A stretch of 64,000 nt of DNA, from contig JAIYCU010000044.1 in NCBI GenBank assembly GCA_027487835.1, forward strand, positions 186,001 through 250,000. Direction: 5' to 3'. The position numbers and the translations under genes were made by a program. This DNA comes from Bacteroidota bacterium. Lineage in GTDB: Bacteria > Bacteroidota > Bacteroidia > UKL13-3. Below are positions 13,785 through 63,276 of this stretch, in pieces (position 1 is the stretch's first letter; every line of letters begins with the position of its first letter). The notes under the pieces were generated by a model, which did no database searches, was not told the DNA's origin, and saw only the letters and a list, made by a program, of their open reading frames with translations.

Positions 13785-14123
13785 TTCAGGATTCCATTGA
13801 AGTTTAATTTATTTTTGATACAGTTTTTATGGTTATGTAGGTCGCAAATTGTGACTCACGATGCGAAGCTGTGTAGGTTAATTATGTTTCTATAACAATA
13901 ATTAGAAAATTTCAGGTTTTTTGACAAACAACCTGGATAGTTAGAGACTAGATTTTTTTAATTGGGATTATAATGATTTTAGGAAAAGTAAAAGTTTATT
14001 TTTAAACTTTTTAGTAGTGGATATTTGAAAAGAAATCTTAAGACTTAAATTAAATAATTATTTAATTGCATAACAATGGTAATATGAAATTTTTAAGATT
14101 AAATTAAATGTAATAAATTGTAA
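13785..14123. other. 339-nt gap between wzc and tviB with small inverted repeats
   Basis: No coding sequence is visible. CAGGTT (13913-13918) and AACCTG (13930-13935) form a 6-bp stem with an 11-nt loop. An A/T-only perfect 20-nt palindrome sits at 14048-14067. A one-mismatch -7 box, GATATTTG, is at 14020-14027 without a clear -33 partner. The gap may contain a partial terminator and a secondary promoter for the sugar-synthesis genes, but none of these signals is strong. Confidence 0.4.
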
Positions 14124-15413: not shown

Positions 15414-16364
15414 ATGAAAATACTAATTACAGGAGGTGCAGGTTTTATCGGTTCAAACTTAGTACGCCATTTTTTACAGCTTGAAGGAATAACCAAGGTT
15501 AGAGTCTTGGATAACCTTGCCACTGGTAAAATGTTAAATATTGAACCCTTTATCATAAATCCTAAATTTGAATTTTTTGAAGGTGATATTAGAGACCCAG
15601 AAACTTGTGAGAAGGCCTGCGAAGGGATTAATTTAATTTCTCATCAAGCAGCACTTGGTTCAGTGCCTCGCAGCATAAAAGAGCCTTTAAATTCTCACCA
15701 AGTAAATGTAAATGGCTTTCTAAATATTTTGGAAGCTGCCAAGCATAATGGCATAAAAAGAATTGTATATGCATCCTCTTCTTCCGTATATGGCGATTTA
15801 AATGAATCCCCTAAAGTAGAAAGTAGACTTGGGAAAATTTTGTCGCCATATGCTGCAACCAAAATGACCAATGAATTATATGCTGAGGCTTATTCAAAAA
15901 ATTATGGTATAACCCTTATTGGACTTCGGTATTTCAATGTTTTTGGTCCGAATCAAGATCCATTTGGACCTTATGCAGCTGTAATTCCATTGTTTATAAA
16001 AGCAGCATTGAAAGGCCAACCTCCGATAATAAATGGAGATGGAACCATTACCAGAGACTTTACACCAGTAACAAATGTTGTACAAATAAATGAAAAGGCT
16101 TTGTTCACAAATTTAGAAGTTGGAAAGCATTATGTTTTTAATGTTGCGTGCGGACAAACCACCGACTTAAACACAATTTGGAACACGATACAATCTATTC
16201 TCGGAGTTAATATTCCTGCCCAATATGGACCCAATAGGCCAGGTGATATTTTAAGCAGTTTAGCGGACATTGATGCTGCCACTTCTATCCTAAATTACAA
16301 GCCTACTTCAAACTTAAAAGAGTATTTATCTGATACAATATCATACTACAAAAATTTAGTTTAG
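15414..16364 (+). CDS. tviC: UDP-N-acetylhexosamine(uronate) 4-epimerase (TviC/WbpP type SDR)
   Basis: The 316-residue extended SDR has NAD motif GGAGFIGSNLVRHF (residues 7-20), active-site region YASSSSVYGDL near 119-129 and the catalytic Tyr146-x3-Lys150 pair in SPYAATK. It is shorter by some 20 residues than typical WbpP. Pairing with a TviB-like dehydrogenase points to the GlcNAcA/GalNAcA branch. An alternative is another hexose 4-epimerase, which the sequence alone does not exclude. Confidence 0.8.
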   Translation: MKILITGGAGFIGSNLVRHFLQLEGITKVRVLDNLATGKMLNIEPFIINPKFEFFEGDIRDPETCEKACEGINLISHQAALGSVPRSIKEPLNSHQVNVNGFLNILEAAKHNGIKRIVYASSSSVYGDLNESPKVESRLGKILSPYAATKMTNELYAEAYSKNYGITLIGLRYFNVFGPNQDPFGPYAAVIPLFIKAALKGQPPIINGDGTITRDFTPVTNVVQINEKALFTNLEVGKHYVFNVACGQTTDLNTIWNTIQSILGVNIPAQYGPNRPGDILSSLADIDAATSILNYKPTSNLKEYLSDTISYYKNLV

Positions 16365-21982: not shown

Positions 21983-22014
21983 TAGGTATTTTATAATAAT
22001 TTAACAGAAATCAA

Positions 22015-46884: not shown

Positions 46885-47960
46885 GCAATCCGTATATTGT
46901 TCATATAATGGTGGGTGATAAATTCACCCTACCTTTAATAGATGAATTGAATAAATTGTTCAAAACTCAACAGCATCATTTTTTAGTTTTGGGTCAAGCT
47001 AATAATTCAAAGGCACAAAATGAAAATGTTTCTTTTTTAAAATCGCCATTTAGAAGCAATGTTTTTCAGAATTTAACAACCGTAGCAAAGCAATTTTATA
47101 AGGCAGAATTGATTGTGATGCATGGATTGCCTGTCTTACATTATTTTATACTTTTTCCATTTGCCCTAAAGAAAATGGCATGGATTATTTATGGTGGAAC
47201 TGACTTATACTTGTATAGTGGGGATACCCTAAATAGTAAAACTATTTGGTTGAACCGATTAAGGAAATTCATATTGAAAAGAGTAAAAATTCACCTTACG
47301 CACATAGAAGGTGATTCTAAATTGGCAAATAATTTCTATCAATCAAAAGCAAAGTTTATCTATCATCCTGTCTATTTAAGCAATGTTATTGAATTACCAC
47401 ATAAACCAGTTGTAAATAATAAAATTAGTTCAAAAAAATTAAATGTATTACTGGGTCATTCAACTGACCCTAGTAATCATCACCTTGAAATATTTGAATG
47501 GTTAAAGGGCATGGATAATATCCAAATTTATTGTCCACTTTCGTATGGTTCTTACAATGCACACAAAGAAAAGGTGAAGCAAAATGGGCTTGAGTTATTT
47601 GGGGAGCGGTTTATTGCTATTGAGCATTTTATGCAGTTTGAAGAATATAAAGCATTTCTGGAAACTATAGACATAGCTGTTTTTAACCATAAACGACAAG
47701 AGGCTATGGGAGTTACTTTAACTTTGCTTTCTTTGGGGAAAGAAGTATATGTAAACAGCAGCACTACTTCATTCCAAAGTTTTAAAAAACGTGGCTTCCA
47801 ACTATTTGATAATACACTTTTGCAAACTGAAAAGTATAACTTAGCTACCCGAAATATTTCTGCTAATTCTAGTTTATTGAAAAATTATTATAGCAAACAA
47901 GTTTGGGAAACACAATGGAAACAAGTTTATAATATTAACTGGATTGACGAATTCGCATAA
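46881..47960 (+). CDS. wecF: dTDP-Fuc4NAc: lipid-linked acceptor transferase (WecF, GT56)
   Basis: The 359-residue protein resembles E. coli WecF along its length, for example YIVHIMVGDKFTLPLIDEL at the start, LNVLLGHSTDPSNHHLEIF, IYCPLSYGSYNAHKEKVKQN and VFNHKRQEAMGVTLTLLSLG. WecF adds Fuc4NAc to the ECA lipid III precursor. Here the acceptor is unknown, because no WecG-like ManNAcA transferase is seen. It sits 1.1 kb after wecE, with a GT-like gene between, and overlaps wzx. Confidence 0.85.
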   Translation: MSNPYIVHIMVGDKFTLPLIDELNKLFKTQQHHFLVLGQANNSKAQNENVSFLKSPFRSNVFQNLTTVAKQFYKAELIVMHGLPVLHYFILFPFALKKMAWIIYGGTDLYLYSGDTLNSKTIWLNRLRKFILKRVKIHLTHIEGDSKLANNFYQSKAKFIYHPVYLSNVIELPHKPVVNNKISSKKLNVLLGHSTDPSNHHLEIFEWLKGMDNIQIYCPLSYGSYNAHKEKVKQNGLELFGERFIAIEHFMQFEEYKAFLETIDIAVFNHKRQEAMGVTLTLLSLGKEVYVNSSTTSFQSFKKRGFQLFDNTLLQTEKYNLATRNISANSSLLKNYYSKQVWETQWKQVYNINWIDEFA

Positions 47961-49374
47961 AGAAAAAACCATTAAGGGGCTAAAATGGTCTGGTATTGGT
48001 CAAGTAATAAAACAAGTGGCTAATATTGGCATTGGCATCTGGTTAGCACGTTTACTTTCTCCAGTAGAGTTTGGATTGCTTGGAATGATAACTGTTTTTA
48101 CTGGCTTTATGCAATTGTTTAATGACTTTGGTTTTGGAGCGGCAGTAATTCAAAAAGAAAAGGTGGATAATAAAGATCTAAACAGTGTGTTTTGGTTCAA
48201 TTTATTTACTGGGATTACTTTTTTTTTGATATTGTTTTTTCTAGGAAAATGGATAGCTATTTTTTATGACAATGTGCAATTGGAAGCTATCGTACAATGG
48301 GTTGCACTTATCTTTATTTTGCAAGCACTTACCTATGTTCAGCAAACTTTGTTTAGGAAACAATTAGATTTTAAAACTATATTTTTAGTTGAACTCATGA
48401 GTTTACTTGCCGGAGGTTCAACTGGAATAATAATGGCATATAATGGATTTGGTGTATATAGTTTAATTGCTCAACTGCTGATGAATAGTTTAGTAAGTGT
48501 TATTACATTATGGTTTTTTTCAACATGGCGACCAGCATTTGAGTTTTCATTTGAACGCATTAAAGCAATGTTAGGATATAGTTTACCTTTAATGGGTTCG
48601 AGTGCTTTGGGATATATTTTGGGGAATTTGGATAAATTATTAATTGGAAAGTTTTTAGGAAACCAAAGTTTGGGATTGTATTCACGCGCTTATTCTTTGA
48701 TGGTCTTTCCAGTAAGTCAAATTAGTGGGGTTATTTCGCAGGTTATGTTTCCATCCTTGGCTCAAATTCAACATGATAAGCCGAGAATAAAGGAGATCTA
48801 TTTAAAGATGAATAGAGTAATAAGTTTTGTAACTTTCCCAATGATGGGTTTGGCTTTTCTTTTGGCTGAACCTTTTGTTTTACTAGTTTTAGGCGAGCAA
48901 TGGCGACCGATAATTCCTTTGTTTAAGATTTTTACTATTGTGGGCGCCTTACAATCGGTTGGTACTTTGATAGGAAATATATATATGGCTTTAGGAGAAA
49001 TGAAATTGTATTTCAGAGTCAATGTGTATTCTGGAATTGTTTTTATTTTAGCTTCAATTATAGGCGTTCAATTTGGAATTTATGGTGTTGCCATTGCATA
49101 TAGTTTGGCTTCTTTTGTAGTAGGTATTCCTCAGTGGATAGTAACAGGCAAGTTGATTAACGTTTCAATACTAGATTATTTTAAGGCATGGTTTATGAGT
49201 TTTATTCTTGCAATTGTTCCTTCTGGTTTGATAGGGTTATTGTTTTTCTTTTTCGGTGTCGAACTACATTTTATTGAAGCGTTATTTACTATTGCCTTGT
49301 TTTTGTTTCTATTTGTAGGGATAAATTGGATTTTTAACCGCAAGTCTTTTTTAATGATTTTAAATATACGATAA
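47944..49374 (+). CDS. wzx: Wzx-like flippase (MOP superfamily)
   Basis: The 476-residue protein begins at TTG and overlaps wecF by 17 nt. It has about twelve to fourteen membrane segments. GLKWSGIGQVIKQVANIGIG near the start and GLLGMITVFTGFMQLFNDFG are typical of polysaccharide flippases (the PST/WzxC branch). It would flip undecaprenyl-linked repeat units for Wzy-type polymerisation, working with the EpsG-like protein and Wza/Wzc. Confidence 0.88.
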   Translation: MTNSHKEKTIKGLKWSGIGQVIKQVANIGIGIWLARLLSPVEFGLLGMITVFTGFMQLFNDFGFGAAVIQKEKVDNKDLNSVFWFNLFTGITFFLILFFLGKWIAIFYDNVQLEAIVQWVALIFILQALTYVQQTLFRKQLDFKTIFLVELMSLLAGGSTGIIMAYNGFGVYSLIAQLLMNSLVSVITLWFFSTWRPAFEFSFERIKAMLGYSLPLMGSSALGYILGNLDKLLIGKFLGNQSLGLYSRAYSLMVFPVSQISGVISQVMFPSLAQIQHDKPRIKEIYLKMNRVISFVTFPMMGLAFLLAEPFVLLVLGEQWRPIIPLFKIFTIVGALQSVGTLIGNIYMALGEMKLYFRVNVYSGIVFILASIIGVQFGIYGVAIAYSLASFVVGIPQWIVTGKLINVSILDYFKAWFMSFILAIVPSGLIGLLFFFFGVELHFIEALFTIALFLFLFVGINWIFNRKSFLMILNIR

Positions 49375-50581: not shown

Positions 50582-52600
50582 ATGTGCGGAATTAGCGGAA
50601 TAATAAGTAAGGACAAAATCAATCTTGGTCAAAGGCTAGCGGATATGAATAATCTGGCTAAGCACCGTGGTCCAGATGATGAAGGTTATGTGCTTATCGA
50701 TTCAACTAACAAGAATTTTATTTGCGCAGCTGGTAATGATACACCCCAAGACTCTTGGAATACCTTAACTGGTTATCAACCATCTATCGATATTCAAAAT
50801 TCCAATCAACTTGTAAACTTAGGTTTAGGGCATCGTCGCCTTTCAATTTTAGATTTATCGCCATTTGGACATTTGCCAATGTGCGATAAATCATCCCAAT
50901 ATTGGATAACTTATAATGGGGAAGTTTATAATTATTTGGAAATAAGAAAGGAACTAATTGAATTAGGCTGTCATTTTAAAACTGAGTCCGATACCGAGGT
51001 AATACTTCAAGCGTATATTGTTTGGGGTACTGAATGTGTTGAAAAGTTTGAAGGCATGTTTGCCTTTGCCATTGCAGATTTAAATAAGAATGAAGTATTC
51101 TTGGCTAGAGATGTATTTGGCATTAAACCTTTGTACTACTGGATAAGTCCTAATGGCGATTTTTGTTTTGCAAGCGAAATCAAACAATTTACCGAATTTC
51201 CAGGTTGGAAGGCTCAAATGAATAAGCAAAGAGTATTTGAATATTTATATTACAGCCTAACGGACCATACAGAGGAAACCCTTTTCGAAAATGTATTTCA
51301 AATAAAACCAGCTAACCTGTTGGTTTTAAATTTAGGTGAAACACCTACATGGGTTCAAGGGAAACCAATTCAAACAAAAACTTATTTTCAATTTAAGCCG
51401 GATGCTCCTGAAGAAAATTTTGAAAGCGCTAAGCAAAAATTTAAAGAAAGATTTGAAGAGAGTGTCGATTTGCACTTACGTTCTGATGTGCCAGTTGGTT
51501 CAGCCCTAAGTGGGGGTCTAGATTCAAGTGCAATAGTTTGTGAAATTAATAAAATATTAAAGGCGCAGGGAAAGTCGGAATTACAAAAAACTTTTTCCGC
51601 AATAAATGATAATCCTAATTTTAGTGAAGAAAAGTGGATAGACAAGGTAACTGAGCATACAAATGTCGATGCATATTTTGTTACTCCAACTTCTGAAGAT
51701 GTATTTAAACTTACCCATAAAATCCTTTGGCACATGGATGAACCTTACCAATCGCAGAGCGCATTTTTGGGGTACCATGTTTTTGAGCTTGCGGCAAAAA
51801 ATAATGTGAAAGTTTTATTAAATGGACAAGGTGCAGATGAATATTTAAGTGGATATGGTGAAATTAGGATATTAAGATGGTATTTGTTGTTTAAAAACTT
51901 TGCTTGGTTAAAATTATACAAGGAATTTAAATTTAATTTGGGCATAAAACCTTTAGACTATTTCACTATTATTTTAAGATTTTTTACCTATTCATTTCCC
52001 AAAGGCTGGATTAATTTTTTCAATTCGAAAACTGAAATGTTTAGGCAATATTCGAGAATAATGCCGCCAAATAAATTTGTAAATAAATTCAAACATCCTT
52101 ATTTAAATTATTTATCGAAACGGAAAAATCTTTTAGATTTAATCACATATCAATTGATTTGTTCTCCACTTCCAAGGTACTTGAGGTGGGAAGACCGCAA
52201 TTCTATGGCGAATTCCGTAGAAGCGCGTGTTCCATTTTTGAATAAGAAGTTGGTAAGTTTTACGGCGGGACAGCCATTAGATTTTTTGGATGGAGTTGAT
52301 ACCTCAAAAAAGCTATTAGTAGAATCATTGAAAGAGTTGCTTCCAGAGGCAATTTATAATAGAAAGGATAAAGTAGGATTTATTTCTGCTGAAGAGTTGT
52401 GGGTAAAGGAGGACAAGGACGGAAAATTTGAGGAATTATTTAATGCAAGTATTTCTATTTTAGGTGATTTGGTAAATCCAATTGAGGCTAAAAAATACTA
52501 TTTGAAATTAAAAAGAGATGAAATTCCATTTGATTATCTATATTGGCGCCTGATTTTACTAGGGATATGGATAGAACTATTCAAAATAGAAAGGTCTTAA
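50582..52600 (+). CDS. asnB: AsnB-like glutamine-dependent amidotransferase, copy 1
   Basis: The 672-residue protein has catalytic Cys2 in MCGISGI and the class II glutaminase motifs AKHRGPDDEG, YNGEVYNY and ESDTEVI. The synthetase domain has the ATP-pyrophosphatase loop SGGLDSSA near 311. It is longer than E. coli AsnB by about 120 residues. In polysaccharide loci such proteins often amidate uronic acids. The GalNAcA-type genes at 14-16 kb would supply that substrate, so a uronamide (GalNAcAN) role is a reasonable inference; free asparagine synthesis is the alternative. Confidence 0.85.
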   Translation: MCGISGIISKDKINLGQRLADMNNLAKHRGPDDEGYVLIDSTNKNFICAAGNDTPQDSWNTLTGYQPSIDIQNSNQLVNLGLGHRRLSILDLSPFGHLPMCDKSSQYWITYNGEVYNYLEIRKELIELGCHFKTESDTEVILQAYIVWGTECVEKFEGMFAFAIADLNKNEVFLARDVFGIKPLYYWISPNGDFCFASEIKQFTEFPGWKAQMNKQRVFEYLYYSLTDHTEETLFENVFQIKPANLLVLNLGETPTWVQGKPIQTKTYFQFKPDAPEENFESAKQKFKERFEESVDLHLRSDVPVGSALSGGLDSSAIVCEINKILKAQGKSELQKTFSAINDNPNFSEEKWIDKVTEHTNVDAYFVTPTSEDVFKLTHKILWHMDEPYQSQSAFLGYHVFELAAKNNVKVLLNGQGADEYLSGYGEIRILRWYLLFKNFAWLKLYKEFKFNLGIKPLDYFTIILRFFTYSFPKGWINFFNSKTEMFRQYSRIMPPNKFVNKFKHPYLNYLSKRKNLLDLITYQLICSPLPRYLRWEDRNSMANSVEARVPFLNKKLVSFTAGQPLDFLDGVDTSKKLLVESLKELLPEAIYNRKDKVGFISAEELWVKEDKDGKFEELFNASISILGDLVNPIEAKKYYLKLKRDEIPFDYLYWRLILLGIWIELFKIERS

Positions 52601-53688
52601 TGAAACTTACATTAGTAGCCGGTGCAAGGCCTAATTTCATGAAAATTGCACCACTTATACATGCTTTGCAAGCTCATAATCAAACTAATTCTAAAAAGTT
52701 AGATTATGCCTTGGTTCATACGGGTCAGCATTTTGATGAAAAAATGAGTGAGACCTTTTTTAGAGAATTAAATATTCCGCATCCAGATGTTAATTTGGCT
52801 GGAGGTGGCGGTACGCAGGCCGAACAAACAGCAGCCATTATGGTTGCATTCGAGAAATATTTGCTAGCAAATCCGTGTGATTTGGTTTTGGTCGTTGGGG
52901 ATGTGACTTCTACCTTAGCCTGTTCTATTGTTGCTAAGAAATTACAAATACAGGTTGCTCATGTTGAGGCAGGCATAAGGTCTTTTGACTTGAGTATGCC
53001 AGAAGAAATTAACAGAATGGTAACAGATAGCATTACTGATTATTTTTTTACAACCACTTCTTGGGCGGGGCAAAACCTTCTAAATGTGGGGGTGGCAGCA
53101 AAAAAAATCTATTTTACAGGAAATGTAATGATTGATACCTTGTATAAAAATTTACCAAACTTACGCGAGCCTTACATCTGGAAGGAAGCGACTTTACAGA
53201 ATGGTAATTTTTTAATGATAACCTTGCACAGGCCCTCAAATGTAGATGACAAGGAACAATTAAAAGGGTTGATGGAAGCAATTATTGCACATTCAGGTAA
53301 TTTAAAACTTGTTTTTCCAGTGCATCCGCGCACTCGGAAAATGCTTGCACAAATTGAATTAAATACAGATCGCTTGTATTTAATTGAACCATTAGGTTAT
53401 TTAGAATTTAACTTTTTGGTAAACCACGCCAAAGGTGTTGTTACAGACTCGGGAGGAATTACAGAAGAAACCACAGTTTTGGGAATCCCTTGTATTACCT
53501 TGCGCACAACTACAGAAAGGCCAGAGACAGTTGAGGTTGGCACAAATGAACTAATCGGCAATGATCCAAAAGCTATTCAACCTTACCTAGAACGATTATT
53601 AGCAGGTAAATGGAAGAAAGGAGAGATTCCAGAAAAGTGGGATGGTAAAGCAGCAGAGAGAATAGTAGAAATTTTGGCCTCAATTTGA
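52600..53688 (+). CDS. wecB: Non-hydrolysing UDP-GlcNAc 2-epimerase (WecB)
   Basis: I place the start at the ATG at 52600 (MKLTLVAGARPNFMKIAPL), which shares a base with the asnB stop. The frame could extend to 52543, but that part overlaps asnB. The protein has VHTGQHFDEKMSETFF, VVGDVTSTLACSIVAKK, HVEAGIRSFDLSMPEEINR and TDSGGITEETTVLG, all WecB hallmarks. The product is UDP-ManNAc. No ManNAcA dehydrogenase (WecC) follows; the TviB at 14124 is the only dehydrogenase here. Confidence 0.9.
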   Translation: MKLTLVAGARPNFMKIAPLIHALQAHNQTNSKKLDYALVHTGQHFDEKMSETFFRELNIPHPDVNLAGGGGTQAEQTAAIMVAFEKYLLANPCDLVLVVGDVTSTLACSIVAKKLQIQVAHVEAGIRSFDLSMPEEINRMVTDSITDYFFTTTSWAGQNLLNVGVAAKKIYFTGNVMIDTLYKNLPNLREPYIWKEATLQNGNFLMITLHRPSNVDDKEQLKGLMEAIIAHSGNLKLVFPVHPRTRKMLAQIELNTDRLYLIEPLGYLEFNFLVNHAKGVVTDSGGITEETTVLGIPCITLRTTTERPETVEVGTNELIGNDPKAIQPYLERLLAGKWKKGEIPEKWDGKAAERIVEILASI

Positions 53689-53693
53689 AAGAA

Positions 53694-54791
53694 ATGAAAA
53701 TATTAATAGTTTCGAATGCATTTTCACCAGAGGTTTCGCCAAGGTCCTTCAGAACTACAGAGTTGGCAAAAGAATTTGCACGTCAAGGACACAAAGTCAA
53801 AGTTATAACCCATTTAGCCGATGAGCAAAAGGATATCGCTAATGAATTTGGAATTGAGTTTAAAGATTTAGGAGCCCATAAATGGAAGCCAATTGGAATT
53901 AAAGGTTCTGGTTTGATAAGGTTATGGTTGCGTTTTTGGTCTCGAATGCTTTTATGGTTTTTTGAATATCCAAATGTAGAATTAGTTATTTTATTAAAAC
54001 AGGCATTGAAAGATGAAGGTGGTTATGATTTGTTGATTTCCATTGCTGTTCCTCATCCTGTGCATTGGGGTATAGCAAGACTTAGAAGAAAAAAAGGAGA
54101 TATAGCAAAAATTTGGGTGGCAGATTGTGGCGACCCTTATATGGGGCAAGAAAATGACACTTTTAAGCCTATGTTTTATTTCAAGTTTGTTGAAAAATGG
54201 TTTTGCAAAAAGGCAGATTATTTAGCTGTACCTACAGAAGGGGCAATACAAGCCTATTACCCAGAATTTCACCAAAAAATAAAAGTAATACCCCAAGGGT
54301 TTAAATTTGAAGATATTAAGGTTTTACCTTACCATGGTGAGGCCGAAAAGATAGTTTTCGGTTACGGTGGGATGTTCATACCTGGCAGACGGGACCCTTC
54401 TGAATTTTTAAATTTTTTGTTGCAACAAACTGATTTGAATTATGAATTTCATATCTATACTGCTACACCTCAGTTTGTTCAGGAATTTGCAAATAAATCA
54501 AACGGCAAAATAAAGATTAACACGCCCATTAAGCGAGAGCAATTATTAACCACCTTATCGGCCATGGATTTTGTGGTGAATTTTGAAAATGTAGGAAACA
54601 AGCAAACCCCTAGTAAACTGATTGATTATGCTATCATTGATAAACCAATTTTATCAATAAAAACTGGTGAGTTAAATGAAAATTTAGTTAAGCAGTTTTT
54701 AAGTAAGCGATATGATAGTGCATTCCAAATTGACAACATCGAAAAATATAAAATTGAGAATGTGGTTAGCTCTTTTTTATCCCTCAAGTAG
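53694..54791 (+). CDS. Glycosyltransferase family 4-like (GT-B)
   Basis: I take the ATG at 53694 as the start; a TTG at 53685 would add three residues. The protein has KILIVSNAFSPEVSPRSFRT, an N-terminal GT-B loop, and a donor-side FGYGGMFIPGRRDP with a later FENVGNKQTPSKLIDYAII. This matches the GT4-like enzymes with weak C-terminal conservation. It is the second gene after asnB, 5 nt downstream of wecB. Confidence 0.78.
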   Translation: MKILIVSNAFSPEVSPRSFRTTELAKEFARQGHKVKVITHLADEQKDIANEFGIEFKDLGAHKWKPIGIKGSGLIRLWLRFWSRMLLWFFEYPNVELVILLKQALKDEGGYDLLISIAVPHPVHWGIARLRRKKGDIAKIWVADCGDPYMGQENDTFKPMFYFKFVEKWFCKKADYLAVPTEGAIQAYYPEFHQKIKVIPQGFKFEDIKVLPYHGEAEKIVFGYGGMFIPGRRDPSEFLNFLLQQTDLNYEFHIYTATPQFVQEFANKSNGKIKINTPIKREQLLTTLSAMDFVVNFENVGNKQTPSKLIDYAIIDKPILSIKTGELNENLVKQFLSKRYDSAFQIDNIEKYKIENVVSSFLSLK

Positions 54792-54841
54792 CGCTAGTAA
54801 TTAGGATTTTTGTAAAAGGCAAATAAATAATTATTTTTAAA

Positions 54842-55873
54842 TTGTTAATTAGTATAATTATACCCGCATTCAATGTAGAATTATACATTGAAAGGTGTTT
54901 ACTTTCTTTGGACATGCAAGACATTCCAAAAGAAGACTATGAAATAATTGTAGTCAATGATGGAAGCCCAGACAACTTAGCCGAGATAGTAAAAAAGAAC
55001 CAAGAGAAAATTCCAAACTTAATATTAATTAATCAGGCAAATCAAGGAGTATCTGGTGCGAGAAACAATGCCATTAACATAGCCAAAGGTAAATATATTC
55101 TGCCTATAGATCCTGATGATTATCTTAAGGAGAATTGTTTTAAAGGGATATTGGAAAAGGTAGAGAAATTTAATGCTGACATTGTTTTTCTTAAATATGA
55201 AAAAATTACGGATTCAGGGAAGGTTATATGGGAACCTGATTTTTCTAATTATGAAGAAACTATTCATTCAACATTAAATAGTTTTTTTGTAACAAAAGGT
55301 GAAAATAATGTATTAAGCGACCCAGATAGAAGTTGGGCAATTCTTTACAAGAGGGAGATTGTATCTAAAATGGTTGAGCCTTATCCACTAAAAGTGCCAT
55401 TTCTTGAAGATGCAATTTTTTTGGTAAAATATTTATGTTATACAAATTCAATTGCATTTATTAGTAATGAGTTTTATAAAAGAACTATTCGTGTTGGTTC
55501 TGCTACCAACTCAAATCTTATGTACTCAGAGAAATCGAGAATTGGTTTTGAAATTGGGTTCAAACATTTAATTAGTTTTAAGGAGTTAGTAGGAACTTTA
55601 ATTTTACCAGAGGATAGAAGGCTTTATTTGAACCAGGTAATCATAAAATTCATGGTATTGCATCTCCGAAATGAATTGCAAGCTGGAGATAGAAAAGCAT
55701 TTGAAAATACACTGAAAAATTACAACTTTAAATCTCAGGATCTTAACTTATATGGGGTTAGATATCCATTTAATTTGTTAGGTTCAAGCATTAAGTATTT
55801 TCCTGCTTTTTTCCCATTTGTTATGAAAAACATAGGAAGAGTTAATTTTTTAATAACAAAATTATTTAGTTAG
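54842..55873 (+). CDS. Glycosyltransferase family 2
   Basis: The 343-residue protein begins at TTG (54842). It has LISIIIPAFNVELYIERCL, IIVVNDGSPDN, GVSGARNNAINIAKGKYI and the DPDDYLKENCF metal site. The C-terminal 100 residues are basic/hydrophobic. It follows a 50-nt gap and precedes the (de)acetylase gene. Confidence 0.87.
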   Translation: MLISIIIPAFNVELYIERCLLSLDMQDIPKEDYEIIVVNDGSPDNLAEIVKKNQEKIPNLILINQANQGVSGARNNAINIAKGKYILPIDPDDYLKENCFKGILEKVEKFNADIVFLKYEKITDSGKVIWEPDFSNYEETIHSTLNSFFVTKGENNVLSDPDRSWAILYKREIVSKMVEPYPLKVPFLEDAIFLVKYLCYTNSIAFISNEFYKRTIRVGSATNSNLMYSEKSRIGFEIGFKHLISFKELVGTLILPEDRRLYLNQVIIKFMVLHLRNELQAGDRKAFENTLKNYNFKSQDLNLYGVRYPFNLLGSSIKYFPAFFPFVMKNIGRVNFLITKLFS

Positions 55874-55906
55874 CTATTAGGCTAATAATTTATAGAATAT
55901 ATAGCC

Positions 55907-57016
55907 TTGAATAAATTTATAAATACATTAAAAAGTCACCTTGGAGCTGCAAAACTAAATTCAAGCGGCAGTAGCTTAAATGGTAAATATTTAATCATCG
56001 AGTCTGATGATTGGGGAACCATTAGAACTCCTTCAAAAGATGCACTTAAGCAATTCGAAAAAGCAGGTTTAGACCTAAGTAGAAGCGTTTATAAAAATGA
56101 TGCATTGGAATCAATGTCAGACTTAGAAGATTTGTTTAATGTTCTGTTAAAATTTAAGGATATTAAGGGAAATCACCCTTGTTTTACTGCAAATACAATA
56201 GTTGCAAACCCAGATTTTGAAAGAATTGAGGAAAGTGGATTTAAAAATTATTTTTTTGAGCCTTATACGAGAACTATCGAAAGGTATCCTGAACACAAAG
56301 AAGTTCATAATTTACATTTAAAAGGAAAAGAATTAGGCGTGTTTATCCCTCAGTTTCATGGAAGAGAGCATCTTAACTACAAAAGATGGTTTAAAGTGCT
56401 TCAAGAGGGAAATGAAAGGGCATTGTTATGTTTTAAGCAAGGTGCCACTTACTCGGGGGAGGGCGATTATAGTTTTATGGAAGCTTATGATTGGGATGCC
56501 AAAACCGACATCGAAGAACATAAGCAGGTAATTGCGGATGGTTTGAAAATGTTTGATCAATTGTTTGGTTTCAAATCCAAATCCTTTATTGCTCCTTGTT
56601 ATAATTGGGATTCTGAAGTTGAATCCACCTTGGCATCAAATGGGGTTGAAGTAATTCAAGGACTTAGGAGCCAATTAGCTCCTACTGGCAAATTTGATGT
56701 TTACAATAGAATTCCACATTCATTTGGAGAGGTGAACGAAAATGGGTTGTTTTTTAATATTAGGAATGCGTTTTTGGAACCTAGCCTCATCCCCAATAAA
56801 GATTGGGTAGATTCTTGTCTAGCGCAAATTCGAATGGCATTTCTCTTTAACAAACCTGCCGTGATATCTAGTCATAGGATTAATTATATTGGTTATATTG
56901 ATCCTAAAAACAAGTTCAATGGTTTGAAGATTCTTGAATCAATACTAAGTAAAGTTTTGAGAAAGTGGCCAGATGTTCAATTTATATCAACAGATAAGAT
57001 AAAAGAAGTTCAATGA
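55907..57016 (+). CDS. Divergent NodB-like polysaccharide (de)acetylase, copy 1
   Basis: The 369-residue protein begins at TTG. It has a metal-site-like LIIESDDWGTIR near residue 28-39 and FIPQFHGREHLN near 146, whose His-x3-His spacing matches NodB-family deacetylases. IAPCYNWDSEVE near 227 and VISSHRINYIGYI near 323 follow. A close paralog lies at 62155. It may deacetylate an N-acetylated sugar of the glycan. No signal peptide is seen, so cytoplasmic action on precursors is likely. It overlaps the CapA gene by 4 nt. Confidence 0.7.
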   Translation: MNKFINTLKSHLGAAKLNSSGSSLNGKYLIIESDDWGTIRTPSKDALKQFEKAGLDLSRSVYKNDALESMSDLEDLFNVLLKFKDIKGNHPCFTANTIVANPDFERIEESGFKNYFFEPYTRTIERYPEHKEVHNLHLKGKELGVFIPQFHGREHLNYKRWFKVLQEGNERALLCFKQGATYSGEGDYSFMEAYDWDAKTDIEEHKQVIADGLKMFDQLFGFKSKSFIAPCYNWDSEVESTLASNGVEVIQGLRSQLAPTGKFDVYNRIPHSFGEVNENGLFFNIRNAFLEPSLIPNKDWVDSCLAQIRMAFLFNKPAVISSHRINYIGYIDPKNKFNGLKILESILSKVLRKWPDVQFISTDKIKEVQ

Positions 57017-58140
57017 AGGTGAAGATAGGATTTACAGGCGATTTTTGTCCGTGGCTAAGAATGGAGCAGTTTATTAAGGAGGGTAATTGGACACCCTTAA
57101 TGGAAACAGTGCAGCCATTTTTTCTTGAAAATGATTTTAATATAATTGATTTGGAAGCGCCGCTGACACGTGCCATAAATCCAATCAAAAAAACAGGCCC
57201 TCATATTAATGCATTGCCTGAATCTGCAAAAATTTTAAACTACTTAAATACGAAACTGGTTGTTACTTCAAATAACCATATGATGGATTATGGGATAGCT
57301 GGACTTGAAAGCACCTATGATGCACTTAAAAAACACGATATTAATTGGGTAGGGTCAGGGTTGAACCTACAAGATGCAATAAAACCTTATGTATTTGAAC
57401 AGAATGGTTTGAGTTTTGGGATTATTAATGCTACAGAAAATGAGTGGACAACCACCCAAGGTGCAAATCCTGGGTGTGCACCTATAGATCCTGTTTTGGT
57501 ATTTAACGCTATACAAAGTATACGTTCAAAGGTTGATTTTGTTATAATAGTGGCTCATGGAGGGCATGAACACTACGAGTTGCCTAGTCCGAGAATCAAA
57601 AAGTTATATAGGTTTTTTGTTGATGCAGGTGCCGATGCTGTAATTGCACATCACACGCATATTATTTCTGGTTTTGAACACTATAAAAATGCACCCATTT
57701 ACTACAGTCTTGGCAATTTTTGCTTTGATTGGGAAGGCTTAAGAAATGGTACTTGGAATAAAGGAATGATGGTAAGGTTAAGCTTTGAAAAGGGACTACC
57801 TGTACAAGACCAACGATTTTATATCCATCACATGGACGATTTTATTGGAACCCGAATGCTGCCTATTAACGAGCAAAAGGAATTAGAAGAGAAGGTAGAA
57901 GCTTTGAATTTGATAATTTCTGATGATGAAAAACTTGAGGCTTCCTATGAAATATTCTTAAAGCAAAAAACAAGGGTATTCAATACTTGGATAGAGCCAT
58001 ATCAAGGCAAAATACTTGCTGGTTTGCATGTTAAAGGTTTAATTCCATCTTTAATGAGCAAAAGTAAACGTAGATTATTGCTAAATTTAACACGTTGCGA
58101 ATCTCATAGAGACATATTAATTAAAGCATTAGAAGAATAA
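57013..58140 (+). CDS. capA: CapA-like metallophosphatase-fold protein
   Basis: The 375-residue protein has IGFTGDFCPW, IDLEAPLT, VTSNNHMMDYGIAGLEST, IIVAHGGHEHYELPSP and IAHHTHIISGFEHY, then YSLGNFCFDW. These are the calcineurin-like CapA/PgsA motifs. CapA proteins take part in poly-gamma-glutamate synthesis and in capsule loci of other types. It has no clear signal peptide or membrane anchor, unlike Bacillus CapA. It sits between the (de)acetylase and an AsnB gene. Confidence 0.85.
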   Translation: MKVKIGFTGDFCPWLRMEQFIKEGNWTPLMETVQPFFLENDFNIIDLEAPLTRAINPIKKTGPHINALPESAKILNYLNTKLVVTSNNHMMDYGIAGLESTYDALKKHDINWVGSGLNLQDAIKPYVFEQNGLSFGIINATENEWTTTQGANPGCAPIDPVLVFNAIQSIRSKVDFVIIVAHGGHEHYELPSPRIKKLYRFFVDAGADAVIAHHTHIISGFEHYKNAPIYYSLGNFCFDWEGLRNGTWNKGMMVRLSFEKGLPVQDQRFYIHHMDDFIGTRMLPINEQKELEEKVEALNLIISDDEKLEASYEIFLKQKTRVFNTWIEPYQGKILAGLHVKGLIPSLMSKSKRRLLLNLTRCESHRDILIKALEE

Positions 58141-58142
58141 TT

Positions 58143-60038
58143 ATGTGCGGTTTTACAGGATATTATTTGTTTGAAGGGAAAAAGGAAAGGAGCAATCGCC
58201 AAATTGCTGAAATGCTTGCCATACAAAAGCACCGTGGACCAGACGATTCTGGTATAACAGCCATTGATACCATCGGGCAAAGAGTGCAGGAACTTCATGG
58301 AAATTCACCCGTTGAATTTGATTTTGATGCAAATTTAATTTTTGGTTTCAATCGATTGAGTATTTTAGATTTGAGCCAAAATGGCCACCAACCTATGTTT
58401 GGCGCTGAAGGAAAAGTGGTATTAATGATGAATGGCGAAATCTATAATGCTTTTGATTTTAAACCCGCTTTGCAAGAAAAAGGATATCAATTTAAAAGTA
58501 CTACAGATACCGAAGTTGTGCTTAATTTATATCTGGAATATGGCATTGATGGAATGCTAGAGAAGCTAAACGGCATGTTTGCCATTGCCATTTATGATGC
58601 TAGAATTGGAAAACTTTTTATAGCTAGAGATAGATTTGGAATCAAACCTATTTATATAGCGAAACAAAACGGGATGTTGGCTTTTGGTTCAGAAATGAAA
58701 AGCTTTAAAGCAATTCCAGGATTTAAATTCGAATTGAACCAACAAGGTTTGGATGAATTTTTATTATTTAGAAATTTAATCAATGACACGCTATTTGATG
58801 GCATACAGAATCTTCAACAAGGTACATATCTTATAGTAAATCCGGATGGTTCGGTTCAAACCAAAATATATTATGATTTAAATGAGGAAGGCATTCAGAA
58901 ACTTGATGGATCAGATGCCAAGGAGAGAATTGATAAAGCGTTAGAAGCAAGTGTGAAAAGTCAGTTGATTAGCGATGTTAAACTTGGTTGTCAGTTGTCT
59001 GGAGGTGTTGATTCTTCTCTTGTTACTTGGTATGCCAATCAATTAAAAGGCGGAGCTGAGCTAGAAACTATTTCAATCATATTCGAGGAAAAGGCTTATT
59101 CCGAAGAAAAATACATAGATAGGGTTGCTTCTGATTTGAACCTAAAGGCTCACAAGTTTATTTTAAACGAGCAAACGTATTTTGAACTCTTAGATAAAGC
59201 TTCTTGGCATTTTGAGCAGCCAGTAAATCATCCCAATACCATTGGTATTTACCTACTCAGCAAATTTGCTAGAGAGCATTTAACAGTGCTTTTAAGTGGG
59301 GAAGGTGCTGATGAATTGTTGGCCGGATATGAACGTTTTGCCAATTTGACAAAAAATCCTTTGGCTACTAAGAACTTTTGGGCTAAATTAAAGCAGAACA
59401 TTCATCATCCGATAGCCTATTTAAATACTAGTTTGGGCGAGGAGGAAAGAATTATTATGGGAAATTCCTTTGGCTCTATTAGCAATGCCTTTGAAATTAA
59501 AAATGGATTCTCAGTTGATAAGGCTTTACAAAATCGACGTAAAATTTTGCATGGACTTAAAGGCAATCTTTTTGACAAGCAAAGAAAGTATGAATTACTC
59601 ACCTATCTCCCAGATTTGCTTATGCGCCAAGATAAAATGAGTATGGCTAGCAGCATAGAAAATAGAGTGCCGTTTTTGGATAACGATTTAGTTTCGTTAG
59701 GACTTTCTTTACCACAGGAAAGTTTGATACGTTCTCACAACACCAGATTGGAAGGCAAGTTTGCGCTTAAAGCAATTTGTGCAGATAAATTTGACAACTC
59801 GTTTGCATTTAGAGATAAGATGGGATTTGGAATTCCAATAAGAAGGTTTATGGGAGCTAGTGCTTTTGAAAAAAGATGGAACGATGAAATTTTCCCTGGA
59901 ATTAGCAAAAGAGGAATATTTGAATCTAAAGCAATAGCAATTAAATTTCAACAAATGAAAACAGGGGATCCTGCTGCTGCAGAACTTATTTGGTTGATGA
60001 CCTCTTTTGAAATTTGGGCAACACAATATTTAAACTAA
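58143..60038 (+). CDS. asnB: AsnB-like glutamine-dependent amidotransferase, copy 2
   Basis: The 631-residue protein keeps catalytic Cys2 (MCGFTGYY), IQKHRGPDDSG, MNGEIYNAF and TTDTEVVLNLY, and the ATP loop SGGVDSSLV near 286. It differs clearly from copy 1. The start is 2 nt after the CapA stop, and an ATP-grasp gene begins 3 nt after its end. This spacing suggests that amidotransferase, CapA and ATP-grasp act in one pathway, possibly amide or amino-acid attachment to the glycan. Confidence 0.85.
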   Translation: MCGFTGYYLFEGKKERSNRQIAEMLAIQKHRGPDDSGITAIDTIGQRVQELHGNSPVEFDFDANLIFGFNRLSILDLSQNGHQPMFGAEGKVVLMMNGEIYNAFDFKPALQEKGYQFKSTTDTEVVLNLYLEYGIDGMLEKLNGMFAIAIYDARIGKLFIARDRFGIKPIYIAKQNGMLAFGSEMKSFKAIPGFKFELNQQGLDEFLLFRNLINDTLFDGIQNLQQGTYLIVNPDGSVQTKIYYDLNEEGIQKLDGSDAKERIDKALEASVKSQLISDVKLGCQLSGGVDSSLVTWYANQLKGGAELETISIIFEEKAYSEEKYIDRVASDLNLKAHKFILNEQTYFELLDKASWHFEQPVNHPNTIGIYLLSKFAREHLTVLLSGEGADELLAGYERFANLTKNPLATKNFWAKLKQNIHHPIAYLNTSLGEEERIIMGNSFGSISNAFEIKNGFSVDKALQNRRKILHGLKGNLFDKQRKYELLTYLPDLLMRQDKMSMASSIENRVPFLDNDLVSLGLSLPQESLIRSHNTRLEGKFALKAICADKFDNSFAFRDKMGFGIPIRRFMGASAFEKRWNDEIFPGISKRGIFESKAIAIKFQQMKTGDPAAAELIWLMTSFEIWATQYLN

Positions 60039-60041
60039 AAG

Positions 60042-61046
60042 ATGATAGCAATACATCCTACAAAAGGTTCATTTAGTGATAGGTGGATAGCCTATTGTGA
60101 AAAAAATAGTATTCCATTCAAGCTCATAAATTGTTATAGTAATGATATCATAAAGGATTTGAAAGGTTGCAGTGCCTTAATGTGGCATTTTAGCCAGAAT
60201 ATTCCGACAGATATTTTACTTGCAAAATCTCTTGTTTTTACTTGCTATCAATTGGGCTTGAAGTTTTTCCCAGATTTTAATACATCTTGGCATTTTGATG
60301 ATAAGGCAGCTCAAAAGTATTTATTGGAAATGTCTGGGACACCTTTTGTGCCCACCTGGGTTTTCTATAATAAAAAAGAAGCCACTACTTGGGCAAAGAC
60401 AACTTCCTTCCCCAAAGTGTTTAAATTAAAAGGAGGGGCAGGGGCTCAAAATGTGGTTTTGGTAAAAAGTGAATCTCAATGTATACAACTAATCAATAAA
60501 GCATTCGGAAGAGGCTTTTCTAATTATGATGCTTTAGGCAGCTTAAAAGAGCGTTGGCGGAAATATAGGAAAGGTCTAGTCGGATTTTATGAAGTATTTA
60601 AAGGTGTTTTGCGTCTTTATGAAAAGCCTCCATATACAAAAGTAAAAGGAAGAGATTATGGGTATGTTTATTTTCAAGAGTTCATTCCAAATAATGATTC
60701 AGATATTCGGATTATTGTGATTGGAGAGAATGCTTTTGGCATAAAAAGAATGGTCAGGGAAAATGATTTTAGGGCATCTGGTAGCGGTTCAATTGTCTAT
60801 GATAAGTCTCAAATTGATGAGCGTTGTGTGCAATTAGCTTTCGGTTTGACCCAAAAGTTAAATGCACAATGTTTGGCATTTGATTATGTGATTGATGCCC
60901 AAAATAATCCATTATTAATTGAAATTAGTTATGGGTATGCAGTAGCAGCCTATGACCAGTGCGAGGGTTTTTGGGATAACCAGTTGAATTGGTATTCTGG
61001 TCCTTTTGACCATTGTGGATGGATGGTAGAATTAGTTGCTAAGTAA
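60042..61046 (+). CDS. ATP-grasp ligase (RimK-like)
   Basis: The 334-residue protein has an ATP-grasp layout: FPKVFKLKGGAGAQNVVLVK near 125, a YVYFQEFIPNNDSDIRIIVI centre, and the late CLAFDYVIDAQNNPLLIEIS. The usual Glu-x-Asn metal pair appears as EIS, so the Asn position is Ser. ATP-grasp enzymes join a carboxylate to an amine or thiol through an acyl phosphate. The substrate is unknown; an amino acid and a uronic acid or amino sugar is an inference from the neighbours. Confidence 0.75.
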   Translation: MIAIHPTKGSFSDRWIAYCEKNSIPFKLINCYSNDIIKDLKGCSALMWHFSQNIPTDILLAKSLVFTCYQLGLKFFPDFNTSWHFDDKAAQKYLLEMSGTPFVPTWVFYNKKEATTWAKTTSFPKVFKLKGGAGAQNVVLVKSESQCIQLINKAFGRGFSNYDALGSLKERWRKYRKGLVGFYEVFKGVLRLYEKPPYTKVKGRDYGYVYFQEFIPNNDSDIRIIVIGENAFGIKRMVRENDFRASGSGSIVYDKSQIDERCVQLAFGLTQKLNAQCLAFDYVIDAQNNPLLIEISYGYAVAAYDQCEGFWDNQLNWYSGPFDHCGWMVELVAK

Positions 61047-61052
61047 AAAAAC

Positions 61053-62132
61053 GTGACAAAAAAAATAGTTTTGGCTATTCCTTCTTTGCAAGCAGGTGGC
61101 ATGGAAAGGGTTATGACAGAGATTGCAAATTATCTCATTACTAATCCGAATTATAGTGTGACCCTAGTTTTGTATGGAATTAACAGAGAAATCTTTTATA
61201 CCCTTGACCCTCGTGTAGAGGTGATAAAGCCAAAGTTTAATTTTAATAACGATAAAAGATTGATTAGCACTTTCAAAACATTGGCTTTTCTAAGAAAAAC
61301 CTTTAATCAACTTAATCCATATCGGATTTTAAGTTTTGGAGAGTTATGGAACAATTTTGTGATGTTATCAGTGTTGGGAACTAAACATCAAGTTGTTTTA
61401 TCAGATAGGTCTCAGCCAGATAAGAGCCTAGGTTTTTTTCAAGAATGGTTAAGAAAAAGATTGTATCCTAATGCTTATGGAATTATAGCGCAAACCCAAA
61501 AGTCCCTTCAGATTTTTAAAAATAAGTACCACCATAAGAATATTCAGATTATAGGAAATCCAATTCGTGCTATTTTACCCAATCAAAGCACGCGTGAAAA
61601 TATCATATTATCAGTAGGGAGGCTTATTAAATCTAAGAATCACGATGCCTTGATACGTATCTTTGCTAACCTAAAAAATGCTGAAAAGTGGAAGTTGATA
61701 ATAGTGGGCTATGATCATTTGAAACAGCAGAATCAAGCGAAATTAGAAACACTGGCCAAAGAATTAAGGATTAGCGAAAGGGTAGAGTTTGCAGGGAAGC
61801 AAAAGGATGTGGAATCTTACTATTTAAGAAGTAAAATTTTCGCCTTTACCTCTAGCTCAGAAGGTTTTCCAAATGTTGTTGGAGAGGCCATGTCGGCTGG
61901 TTTGCCAATTATTTCCTATGATTGTGTGGCTGGGCCATCAGATTTGATTGAGGATGGATACAATGGTTACCTAATTCCATTAAATGATGAAGTTCTGTAT
62001 TTAGAACGCCTGCAGAGGCTTATCGATGATAATGAATTGTCTGAACGTTTTGCATCAAATTCACTGATTAAGATTAAGGAGTTTGAACCTAACCATATTC
62101 TCCAAAAATTTGAACAAATTATTAGTAATTAA
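61053..62132 (+). CDS. Glycosyltransferase family 4 (GT-B)
   Basis: The 359-residue protein starts at GTG. It has PSLQAGGMERVMTEIANYLI, ILSVGRLIKSKNHDALIRIF near 180 and AFTSSSEGFPNVVGEAMSAG near 265, then PIISYDCVAGPSDLI. This is the GT4 branch often annotated as GalNAc-alpha-GalNAc or similar transferases, and the specificity is not certain. It is followed after 22 nt by the second (de)acetylase gene. Confidence 0.88.
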   Translation: MTKKIVLAIPSLQAGGMERVMTEIANYLITNPNYSVTLVLYGINREIFYTLDPRVEVIKPKFNFNNDKRLISTFKTLAFLRKTFNQLNPYRILSFGELWNNFVMLSVLGTKHQVVLSDRSQPDKSLGFFQEWLRKRLYPNAYGIIAQTQKSLQIFKNKYHHKNIQIIGNPIRAILPNQSTRENIILSVGRLIKSKNHDALIRIFANLKNAEKWKLIIVGYDHLKQQNQAKLETLAKELRISERVEFAGKQKDVESYYLRSKIFAFTSSSEGFPNVVGEAMSAGLPIISYDCVAGPSDLIEDGYNGYLIPLNDEVLYLERLQRLIDDNELSERFASNSLIKIKEFEPNHILQKFEQIISN

Positions 62133-62154
62133 TTTTAATAGCTATTTATAATAT

Positions 62155-63276
62155 ATGGGCCTAAATATTAAAAGTGTAATTAGAAATTTATCCAATCTTC
62201 CTGGATGGAAAACCAATAGAAAGTTATTGGTCATAGAATCTGATGATTGGGGTAGCATTAGGATGCCCAGCCTTAATTCGCTAAAGGAATTGAAAGAAAA
62301 GGGGCTTGATTTAGAATCCGGCGATTCATTTAGGTATAATAATAACGATACGCTTGCTGGTACTAAAGATTTTGAAATGTTGTTTGAAGTGCTAAATAAG
62401 CATAAAGACAACAAAGGGAATTCTGCTGTTTTTACGGCTGTTTCGGTTGTTGCAAATCCAGATTTTGAGAAAATAAAGGCTAATGATTTTAAAGAATATT
62501 ATTTCGAAACATTTGATAAAACCTTAGAGCGATATGGATATCCAGAAGCATTTAATTGTTGGAAAGAAGGGATTGATAAAAAGTTTTTTGTTCCACAATT
62601 CCATGCTAGGGAGCATTTAAATGTTCCTTTTTGGATGAGGGCCCTTCGAAATAATGATTCACATGCAAGAATTGCATTTGATTATGGGATGTGGGGTTTT
62701 AATAATGTTCATAAGCATGGCTGTTATTTTCAGTCGGCATTTGATTTAGAGTATTTTGAGGATGTAAAGGAACAAGCAGAAACGATTTCAAGCGGACTTC
62801 AATTGTTTGAGCAGTTGTTTGGGTATAAGGCAACATTTTTTGTGCCACCTAATGGGCCTTTCAATAACAGTTTGGAGGAGGCTGCCTATAAAGGGGGGAT
62901 AAAATATATTTCAGCATCTAAGATTCAACAAGAGCCATTTGGCGAAGGCAAAACAAAAAAGAGGTTTCATTATATAGGGCAAAAGAATAGGTTCAAGCAA
63001 ACTTATTTAACACGCAATTGTATCTTTGAACCTGGTTCTAATCAAAGAACTGATTGGGTGGATGCTTGCTTATCTGATATCGAAATTGCCTTTAAATGGA
63101 ATAAACCCGCTGTAATAAGTTCACATAGGGTTAATTATATTGGTCAGCTAAATCCTAAAAATAGAGAAATTAGTTTAAAAAGTTTAGATGATTTGTTATA
63201 TAAAGTTAAAACAAAATGGCCTGAGGTGGAATTCATTACCTCCGAGGAGTTAGGAGACTTGGTAAATAAGGGCTAA
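62155..63276 (+). CDS. Divergent NodB-like polysaccharide (de)acetylase, copy 2
   Basis: The 373-residue protein is a clear paralog of the protein encoded at 55907. It shares LLVIESDDWGSIR, FVPQFHAREHLN (His-x3-His), FFVPPNGPFNNS and VISSHRVNYIGQLNPKN. Both copies flank the capA-asnB-ATP-grasp-GT4 stretch, as if each acts on a different sugar or the segment arose by duplication. It is the last gene before a 138-nt gap. Confidence 0.7.
   Translation: MGLNIKSVIRNLSNLPGWKTNRKLLVIESDDWGSIRMPSLNSLKELKEKGLDLESGDSFRYNNNDTLAGTKDFEMLFEVLNKHKDNKGNSAVFTAVSVVANPDFEKIKANDFKEYYFETFDKTLERYGYPEAFNCWKEGIDKKFFVPQFHAREHLNVPFWMRALRNNDSHARIAFDYGMWGFNNVHKHGCYFQSAFDLEYFEDVKEQAETISSGLQLFEQLFGYKATFFVPPNGPFNNSLEEAAYKGGIKYISASKIQQEPFGEGKTKKRFHYIGQKNRFKQTYLTRNCIFEPGSNQRTDWVDACLSDIEIAFKWNKPAVISSHRVNYIGQLNPKNREISLKSLDDLLYKVKTKWPEVEFITSEELGDLVNKG

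Follow-up and report, generated by a model that had tools for sequence, protein, structure and literature searches.

A recurring cassette of divergent deacetylases, an ATP-grasp ligase, AsnB, and CapA with a possible role in decorating surface glycans of Bacteroidota

Introduction

What could two asparagine synthase-like enzymes, a CapA protein, an ATP-grasp ligase, and two divergent deacetylase-like proteins be doing side by side among glycosyltransferase genes? The question is raised by a 64,000-nucleotide stretch of DNA from a Bacteroidota bacterium of the UKL13-3 lineage (assembly GCA_027487835.1, contig JAIYCU010000044.1, positions 186,001 to 250,000), hereafter called the window, in which ten genes between positions 50582 and 63276 follow one another as asnB1, wecB, GT4a, GT2, DAC1, capA, asnB2, GRASP, GT4b, and DAC2. 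Here, we describe these genes as a conserved, recurring cassette that belongs mostly to Bacteroidota sensu lato and turns up sporadically in other groups. We propose that the cassette acts in the cytoplasm to decorate a surface glycan by deacetylation and then amide formation, a reading to which we assign a probability of about one half.

Results

The cassette was found widely in other genomes. A scan of contigs from the Genome Taxonomy Database (GTDB) returned at least 535 relatives of GRASP, and the counts out of 80 given throughout refer to the best 80 of these, taken from named genomes with flanks of up to 10 kb, a sample that is biased toward close relatives because the best matches were chosen. 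The initial annotation of this locus had named a lack of co-occurrence outside this genome as evidence against its proposal, and co-occurrence was what we observed: DAC genes lie in 59 of the 80 loci, CapA in 41, AsnB in 40, and GT4b in 60, and homologues of GT4a adjoin the cassette in 34. The genes capA, asnB, and GRASP are consecutive in 25/80 loci, and GT4b follows GRASP directly, at a distance of no more than 1.5 kb, in 47/80. The recurring order, GT4a-Wzy-like-DAC-(DAC)-CapA-AsnB-GRASP-GT4b, was seen in Flavobacterium, Chryseosolibacter, Imperialibacter, Rhodonellum, Marinilabiliaceae, and Chlorobi, and in abbreviated form in Balneolota, Ignavibacteriota, Acidobacteriota, and a few Pseudomonadota; at the position of the Wzy-like gene of other loci, the window holds GT2. 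Cultured carriers include Flavobacterium paronense (L070) and Chryseosolibacter histidini (L065), and Acinetobacter schindleri (L091) has a GRASP locus that lacks DAC. Homologues of GRASP were present in 9 of 196 genomes of relatives and in 23 of 395 genomes of the phylum; such patchiness is typical for genes of surface antigens. DAC genes were likewise present in 23 of the 395, and 17 genomes carried both (hypergeometric p 3e-20, a value that is uncorrected for kinship and overstates the evidence because the genomes are related). Deacetylases and amide-forming enzymes thus travel together, and this is the core support for the idea that deacetylation is followed by amidation.

In the window, all ten genes are intact on the + strand with no internal stops, and their coordinates and family matches bear out the gene order first reported. 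The product of wecB (52600..53688) belongs to the non-hydrolysing UDP-GlcNAc 2-epimerase family and is WecB- or WbpI-like (TIGR00236, 321 bits, above the cut-off; PF02350), and three glycosyltransferases are encoded by GT4a (GT4-type; 53694..54791; PF13439), GT2 (54842..55873; PF00535), and GT4b (GT4-type, the usual 3' neighbour of GRASP; 61053..62132; PF00534). The asnB1 and wecB genes share a TGATG overlap, with the ATG of wecB at 52600, and wecB and GT4a either overlap or are separated by 5 nt, given that the start codon is uncertain. The gaps that follow are 50 nt (GT4a-GT2) and 33 nt (GT2-DAC1), then a 4-nt overlap of DAC1 and capA, 2 nt (capA-asnB2), 3 nt (asnB2-GRASP), 6 nt (GRASP-GT4b), and 22 nt (GT4b-DAC2), so that the tight spacing claimed earlier for the second half of the set holds for the gaps up to GT4b and does not extend to the last. 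Spacing is the only basis for an operon structure, because a promoter and terminator scan gave no excess over shuffles.

The 3.38-Mb genome carries two Asn_synthase genes and two DAC genes in total, and all four fall inside this 12.7-kb stretch, a grouping beyond chance; one of its two CapA genes is also in the cassette. A genome of the same genus (locus L012) has all ten genes in identical order. The ratio of nonsynonymous to synonymous substitution rates (dN/dS) between the window and this copy was 0.04 to 0.21 for nine genes, indicating purifying selection on the nine that were scored; DAC1 was unscorable given that its synonymous sites were saturated. We considered whether the cassette might involve no joint chemistry and consist of independently useful polysaccharide genes that travel as recombining capsule blocks. 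The clusters are indeed mosaic, with the content of the position directly 5' of GRASP (the slot) differing between close GRASP relatives, and the genes also occur alone: GRASP without DAC at nine assessable loci (those with 9 kb of upstream sequence) and DAC without GRASP in 6 of the 395 phylum genomes. However, order and tight spacing repeat in distant phyla, the genes are under purifying selection, and the slot is restricted in most loci to AsnB, CapA, DUF362, or a second ATP-grasp protein, which makes this explanation unlikely.

DAC1 (55907..57016) and its paralogue DAC2 (62155..63276; 40% identical) matched no family among the Pfam and NCBIfam models. Neither matched PF01522, to which 5 of 34 family members matched only at E 0.007 or worse, and a DAC profile searched against PDB sequences returned only low-complexity helical false matches. 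The AlphaFold2 model of DAC1, built with 55 homologues, had a predicted local distance difference test score (pLDDT) of 95 and matched the folds of the polysaccharide deacetylase 3rxz (Z 19.5 over 241 residues), the N-deacetylase domain of human NDST1 (Z 18.5), and ArnD (Z 16.7). GH57 enzymes, which belong to the same fold superfamily, match DAC1 at Z 16-17, so the fold alone is no proof of deacetylation. A DD...HxxxH motif (D34, D35, H151, and H155) is invariant in 56 DAC sequences; D34-D35 lies where the first strand ends and H151-x3-H155 follows a later strand, a placement that was read off the strand ends without superposing coordinates and that fits the base and metal ligands of CE4 enzymes. 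From the model and these residues, we predict that the DAC proteins are metal-dependent deacetylases that work as CE4 enzymes do, and we class them as divergent CE4/NodB-fold relatives outside PF01522. The "paired (de)acetylases" of the initial annotation are accordingly two related genes, both predicted to encode paralogous deacetylases, and not a deacetylase/acetylase pair.

GRASP (60042..61046) matched RimK models weakly (PF08443, 42 bits; TIGR00768, 51 bits, below the cut-off of 143). Its AlphaFold2 model (pLDDT 91) has a fold closest to LysX (Z 24.2), RimK (Z 24.0), and ArgX (within Z 23-24), with D-Ala ligases scoring below 20. The ATP-binding lysines K88 and K128 are invariant, as are D281 and E294, two of the D...ExN metal ligands of ATP-grasp enzymes; the N position is S296 in 90% or more. 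GRASP therefore resembles RimK, LysX, and ArgX in fold and in most ATP and metal residues but differs from them in its low identity (14-19%), its Asn-to-Ser substitution, and its own invariant motifs, WHFDDK and NDFRASGSG, and no peptide or LysW carrier for it was found. These features suggest a distinct family of RimK/LysX-like amide ligases. In the GRASP tree, 8/9 DAC-less GRASPs form one set (support 100/98) and the window GRASP falls in the part with DAC (93/93); because they separate in this way, the two bond polarities considered below for GRASP may be real sub-specialisations. Tandem duplicate GRASP genes occur at L052:8701-10942 and L057:8053-10203, where one L057 copy has an in-frame TGA. 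In Balneolota-type loci (L048:8679-9806, L052, L053, L054, and L055), one or several ATPgrasp_ST (PF14397) proteins adjoin GRASP, so that ATP-grasp ligases of two kinds share a cluster, and leucine-rich repeat (LRR) and fibronectin-like secreted proteins are encoded nearby.

Both AsnB proteins are class-II glutamine amidotransferase/asparagine-synthase family members that score above the TIGR01536 cut-off of 267 bits: AsnB1 (50582..52600; 672 residues) with 412 bits, together with PF00733 and PF13537, and AsnB2, the AsnB of the recurring cassette (58143..60038; 631 residues), with 426 bits. Cys2 and the PP-loop SGGxDSS are invariant in the alignment. Could these be housekeeping asparagine synthetases that are located here by chance? 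They are the sole Asn_synthase genes of the genome, AsnA was not found, and AsnRS is present, in addition to the family scores above. However, the genome has GatB, which would allow Asn to be formed by the tRNA-dependent route; an Asn_synthase gene is absent from 3/13 high-quality genomes of the genus; and AsnB2 homologues adjoin GRASP in unrelated phyla. A purely housekeeping function is thus very improbable, although the AsnB proteins may have a double role in housekeeping and in the glycan.

CapA (57013..58140; PF09587, 188 bits) belongs to the PGA_cap family and has a single-metal calcineurin-like site. The classical meaning of the name is a poly-gamma-glutamate-type capsule, which its membership in PF09587 would allow. 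Capsule CapA/PgsA proteins carry a membrane anchor, which the window CapA lacks; no CapB/CapC-type ligase or carrier was found among the region proteins searched; and GRASP is RimK/LysX-like. We consider such a capsule to be the remotest of the explanations weighed here. The closest relative of CapA in the PDB is MslH, a calcineurin-fold peptide epimerase of lasso peptides (PMC10406935), and CapA keeps all eight MslH catalytic and calcium-binding positions, as D10, E48, N88, H89, D92, H182, H185, and H216 (D11, E44, N87, H88, D91, H259, H261, and H295 in MslH). Seven of these are present in 9/9 CapA sequences and H185 is in 8/9, with the residue set partly common to all PGA_cap proteins. Overall identity to MslH is low and CapA is surrounded by glycan genes, and an epimerase role would apply here by analogy. 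The tie of CapA to amide-linked polymers that had been drawn earlier was not sustained, given that its nearest characterised relative is an epimerase and no amide synthase. A hydropathy scan of DAC, CapA, AsnB, and GRASP revealed no hydrophobic signal or membrane segment, from which we infer that the chemistry is cytoplasmic and precedes export by Wzx.

The gene in the slot was AsnB in 34/80 loci, CapA in 13/80, and a DUF362 protein, in place of AsnB or CapA, in 12/80. The slot varies even inside a single Chlorobi clade of GRASP, where it holds CapA plus AsnB, AsnB alone, or DUF362. On two Chlorobi contigs (L049/L122 and L058), DUF362 (L049:5572-7032) is followed by LarC-, LarE-, and LarB-like genes between DAC and GRASP (L049:5572-9869; L058, reverse strand, at about 10924-15140), of which LarC was called by PF01969 and LarE and LarB by eye. 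LarC, LarE, and LarB make the nickel-pincer cofactor. A DUF362 profile searched against PDB sequences gave no match, so the link between DUF362 and LarA rests on their reported membership in one Pfam clan (PMC11770544) and on the LarB/LarC/LarE-like neighbours. These genes suggest a LarA-like epimerase in a glycan cluster, and the slot families CapA (MslH-like) and DUF362 (LarA clan) both appear related to alpha-carbon epimerases, which hints that the slot protein may determine the form or the stereochemistry of whatever GRASP attaches. In its most specific version, DAC would free a sugar amine, GRASP would acylate it with a small acid, and the slot enzyme would set the stereochemistry of that acid: CapA would do so as an amino-acid epimerase of the calcium type, and DUF362 as a LarA-like, nickel-pincer epimerase of 2-hydroxy acids. 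We regard both this scheme and its assignment of the two epimerases as rather unlikely to be right as they stand. If true, the scheme would give CapA-type and DUF362-type enzymes their first glycan role and explain how one ligase leads to many amino- or hydroxy-acid antigens.

With the gene content, recurrence, folds, intact catalytic motifs, and absence of signal peptides in hand, we propose the following reactions; every substrate, the succession of the reactions, and the GRASP bond polarity are suggestions of ours. The DAC proteins would strip the N-acetyl group from an N-acetylhexosamine (HexNAc) of a nucleotide sugar or lipid-linked repeat unit, after which GRASP would draw on ATP to activate a carboxylate for amide formation, most likely placing an amino acid (or a similar small acid) on the freed sugar amine. 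AsnB2 (and AsnB1) would then amidate, from glutamine, the carboxylate of a uronic acid or of the attached acid, and CapA would work on the same substituent, possibly as an MslH-like alpha-carbon epimerase. GT4a, GT2, and GT4b would assemble the repeat unit, which Wzx would flip. The polarity of acid onto amine is backed by the link between DAC and GRASP and by the kinship of slot proteins with alpha-carbon enzymes. The deacetylate-then-amide logic put forward in the initial annotation is supported in part, by the co-occurrence, the DAC fold and metal motif, the amide-forming neighbours, and the Wbp/Vim precedent discussed below.

Several points weigh against this explanation. RimK, LysX, and ArgX activate the carboxylate of the acceptor and add an amino acid via its amine, which is the opposite arrangement; the third ATP-grasp metal ligand, Asn, is Ser in GRASP; and a UDP-sugar dehydrogenase lies within 10 kb in 9/9 assessable DAC-less GRASP loci and in 1/51 loci with DAC, so that a uronic-acid acceptor fits, at least in the DAC-less loci. 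In the opposite polarity, GRASP would activate the carboxylate of a hexuronic acid and couple it, through an amine, to an amino acid or amino alcohol, DAC would provide a separate free amine and thereby a zwitterionic or cationic glycan, and AsnB would produce primary uronamides. The nearest folds of GRASP and the dehydrogenases of the DAC-less loci favour this arrangement, as do the TviB- and TviC-like genes of the window and the occurrence of at least one dehydrogenase homologue in 28/29 carrier genomes, in some at a distance of tens of kb within one contig and in others on a separate contig. It also has a precedent in Cj1438 of Campylobacter jejuni, in which an ATP-grasp enzyme amidates the C6 carboxylate of glucuronic acid (PMC11800379). 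However, it leaves unexplained both the strong association of DAC with GRASP and the scarcity of a local dehydrogenase in loci with DAC, and several such genomes with long contigs have the dehydrogenase outside the cluster. We regard the opposite polarity as possible but doubtful in both its GRASP and its DAC/AsnB parts. That loci with DAC lack uronic acids was considered and rejected, given that a whole-genome search found dehydrogenases elsewhere in nearly all of these genomes.

The cassette is part of a Wzx/Wzy-type surface-polysaccharide cluster of about 75 kb that extends past the window, with sugar-precursor, transport, and initiating-transferase genes distributed from roughly 8 kb onward and past the end of the window; the system is thus larger than the boundaries first drawn. 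Poly_export and Wzc-like genes (10.4-13.8 kb) are followed by a TviB-like UDP-HexNAc C6 dehydrogenase (14124..15410, +; NF011729 TviB, 557 bits, cut-off 592; TIGR03026 above cut-off), a TviC-like C4 epimerase of the UDP-linked N-acetylhexosaminuronic acid (15414..16364, +; NF011728, 258 bits, below the cut-off of 760; PF01370), and an EpsG-like membrane protein (16.4 kb). The TviB-like enzyme would be a source of hexuronic acid within the cassette's own cluster. Sialic or nonulosonic acid genes (NeuB, a NeuC-type epimerase, and a cytidylyltransferase) lie at 39.8-42.7 kb, a Fuc3N/Fuc4N-type aminotransferase gene at 44.7 kb, and genes for a GT56 protein, a Wzx flippase, and a methyltransferase at 46.9-50.0 kb; the Wzx-type flippase (47944..49374, +; PF13440, 325 bits) lies just 5' of the cassette. 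Two ATP-binding cassette (ABC) transporter systems (21116-23310 and 36972-38747) share the cluster with this flippase, and more than one export route may exist. A FucT-type GT10 fucosyltransferase (35042-36034) and a weak sulfotransferase match (38751-39770) were also noted.

Beyond the window (locus L019, equal to contig C20:249500-269400) are glycosyltransferases and, at L019:6487-10932, a Bac_transf initiating sugar transferase followed by KAS III-like, short-chain dehydrogenase/reductase (SDR), PglD-like, and DegT genes. This block would fit an amino sugar bearing a hydroxyacyl group, and it is also present near many other GRASP loci. Genes for a MocA dehydrogenase, a hexapeptide acetyltransferase, and a DegT aminotransferase are adjacent at C20:260502-263301 (L019:11003-13802), about 11 kb 3' of DAC2. 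This trio resembles WbpB/WbpD/WbpE, Wbp enzymes of UDP-GlcNAc3NAcA synthesis, with family matches that are weak or non-specific, and relatives of the MocA gene are present in 10/29 carrier genomes.

Discussion

The closest known parallel to the proposed chemistry is the Wbp/Vim linking-sugar pathway of Porphyromonas gingivalis and Tannerella forsythia, in which a CE4-type deacetylase, an amino-acid attacher, and an AsnB-like enzyme act on one cytoplasmic sugar. In P. gingivalis, VimE deacetylates, VimA adds Ser or Gly, and the AsnB-like WbpS makes the uronamide (PMC7468200). Genes that resemble WbpB/WbpD/WbpE of this pathway, through weak or non-specific matches, also lie in the cassette's cluster outside the window. 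In contrast, the cassette has an ATP-grasp ligase in place of VimA, which is FemAB/acetyltransferase-like, it adds CapA, and its DAC proteins have diverged beyond the reach of Pfam, while VimE is identifiable as CE4. No VimA-type (FemAB/GNAT-like) transferase was found among the ten cassette proteins, to which this search was confined.

Two further systems share individual features with the cassette. The Cj1438 amidoligase of the C. jejuni HS:2 capsule (PMC11800379) likewise has an ATP-grasp domain, forms an amide on a capsular sugar, and acts in a glycosyltransferase context. However, its TupA-like domain is fused to a GT2 domain, whereas GRASP is stand-alone and RimK/LysX-like, and its neighbours are DAC, CapA, and AsnB. 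The AsnB-type uronamide synthases (WbpS/PGN_1234 and the Tannerella asnB-wecC-wecB genes, PMC6120980) are likewise AsnB family members with wecB as a neighbour in a glycan cluster of Bacteroidota, but the fixed partner of AsnB2 is GRASP/CapA and not wecB. In the open-licence literature on ATP-grasp enzymes with O-antigen or capsule deacetylases, or on Flavobacterium and Acinetobacter capsules, we found no description of the cassette. The combination thus appears new, and the initial annotation was right that it is not a standard capsule pathway, even though an analogue is known for every chemical step; the DAC and GRASP families are both missing from the curated libraries searched.

In summary, our study defines a widespread, unannotated glycan-modification cassette that includes two families, DAC and GRASP, which curated libraries miss, and it offers a testable role for "CapA" and "AsnB" genes, which are common yet unexplained in the polysaccharide clusters of Bacteroidota. 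If the proposed chemistry is true, amide-linked substituents, which alter charge, phage receptors, and immune recognition, would be predictable from sequence in hundreds of genomes.

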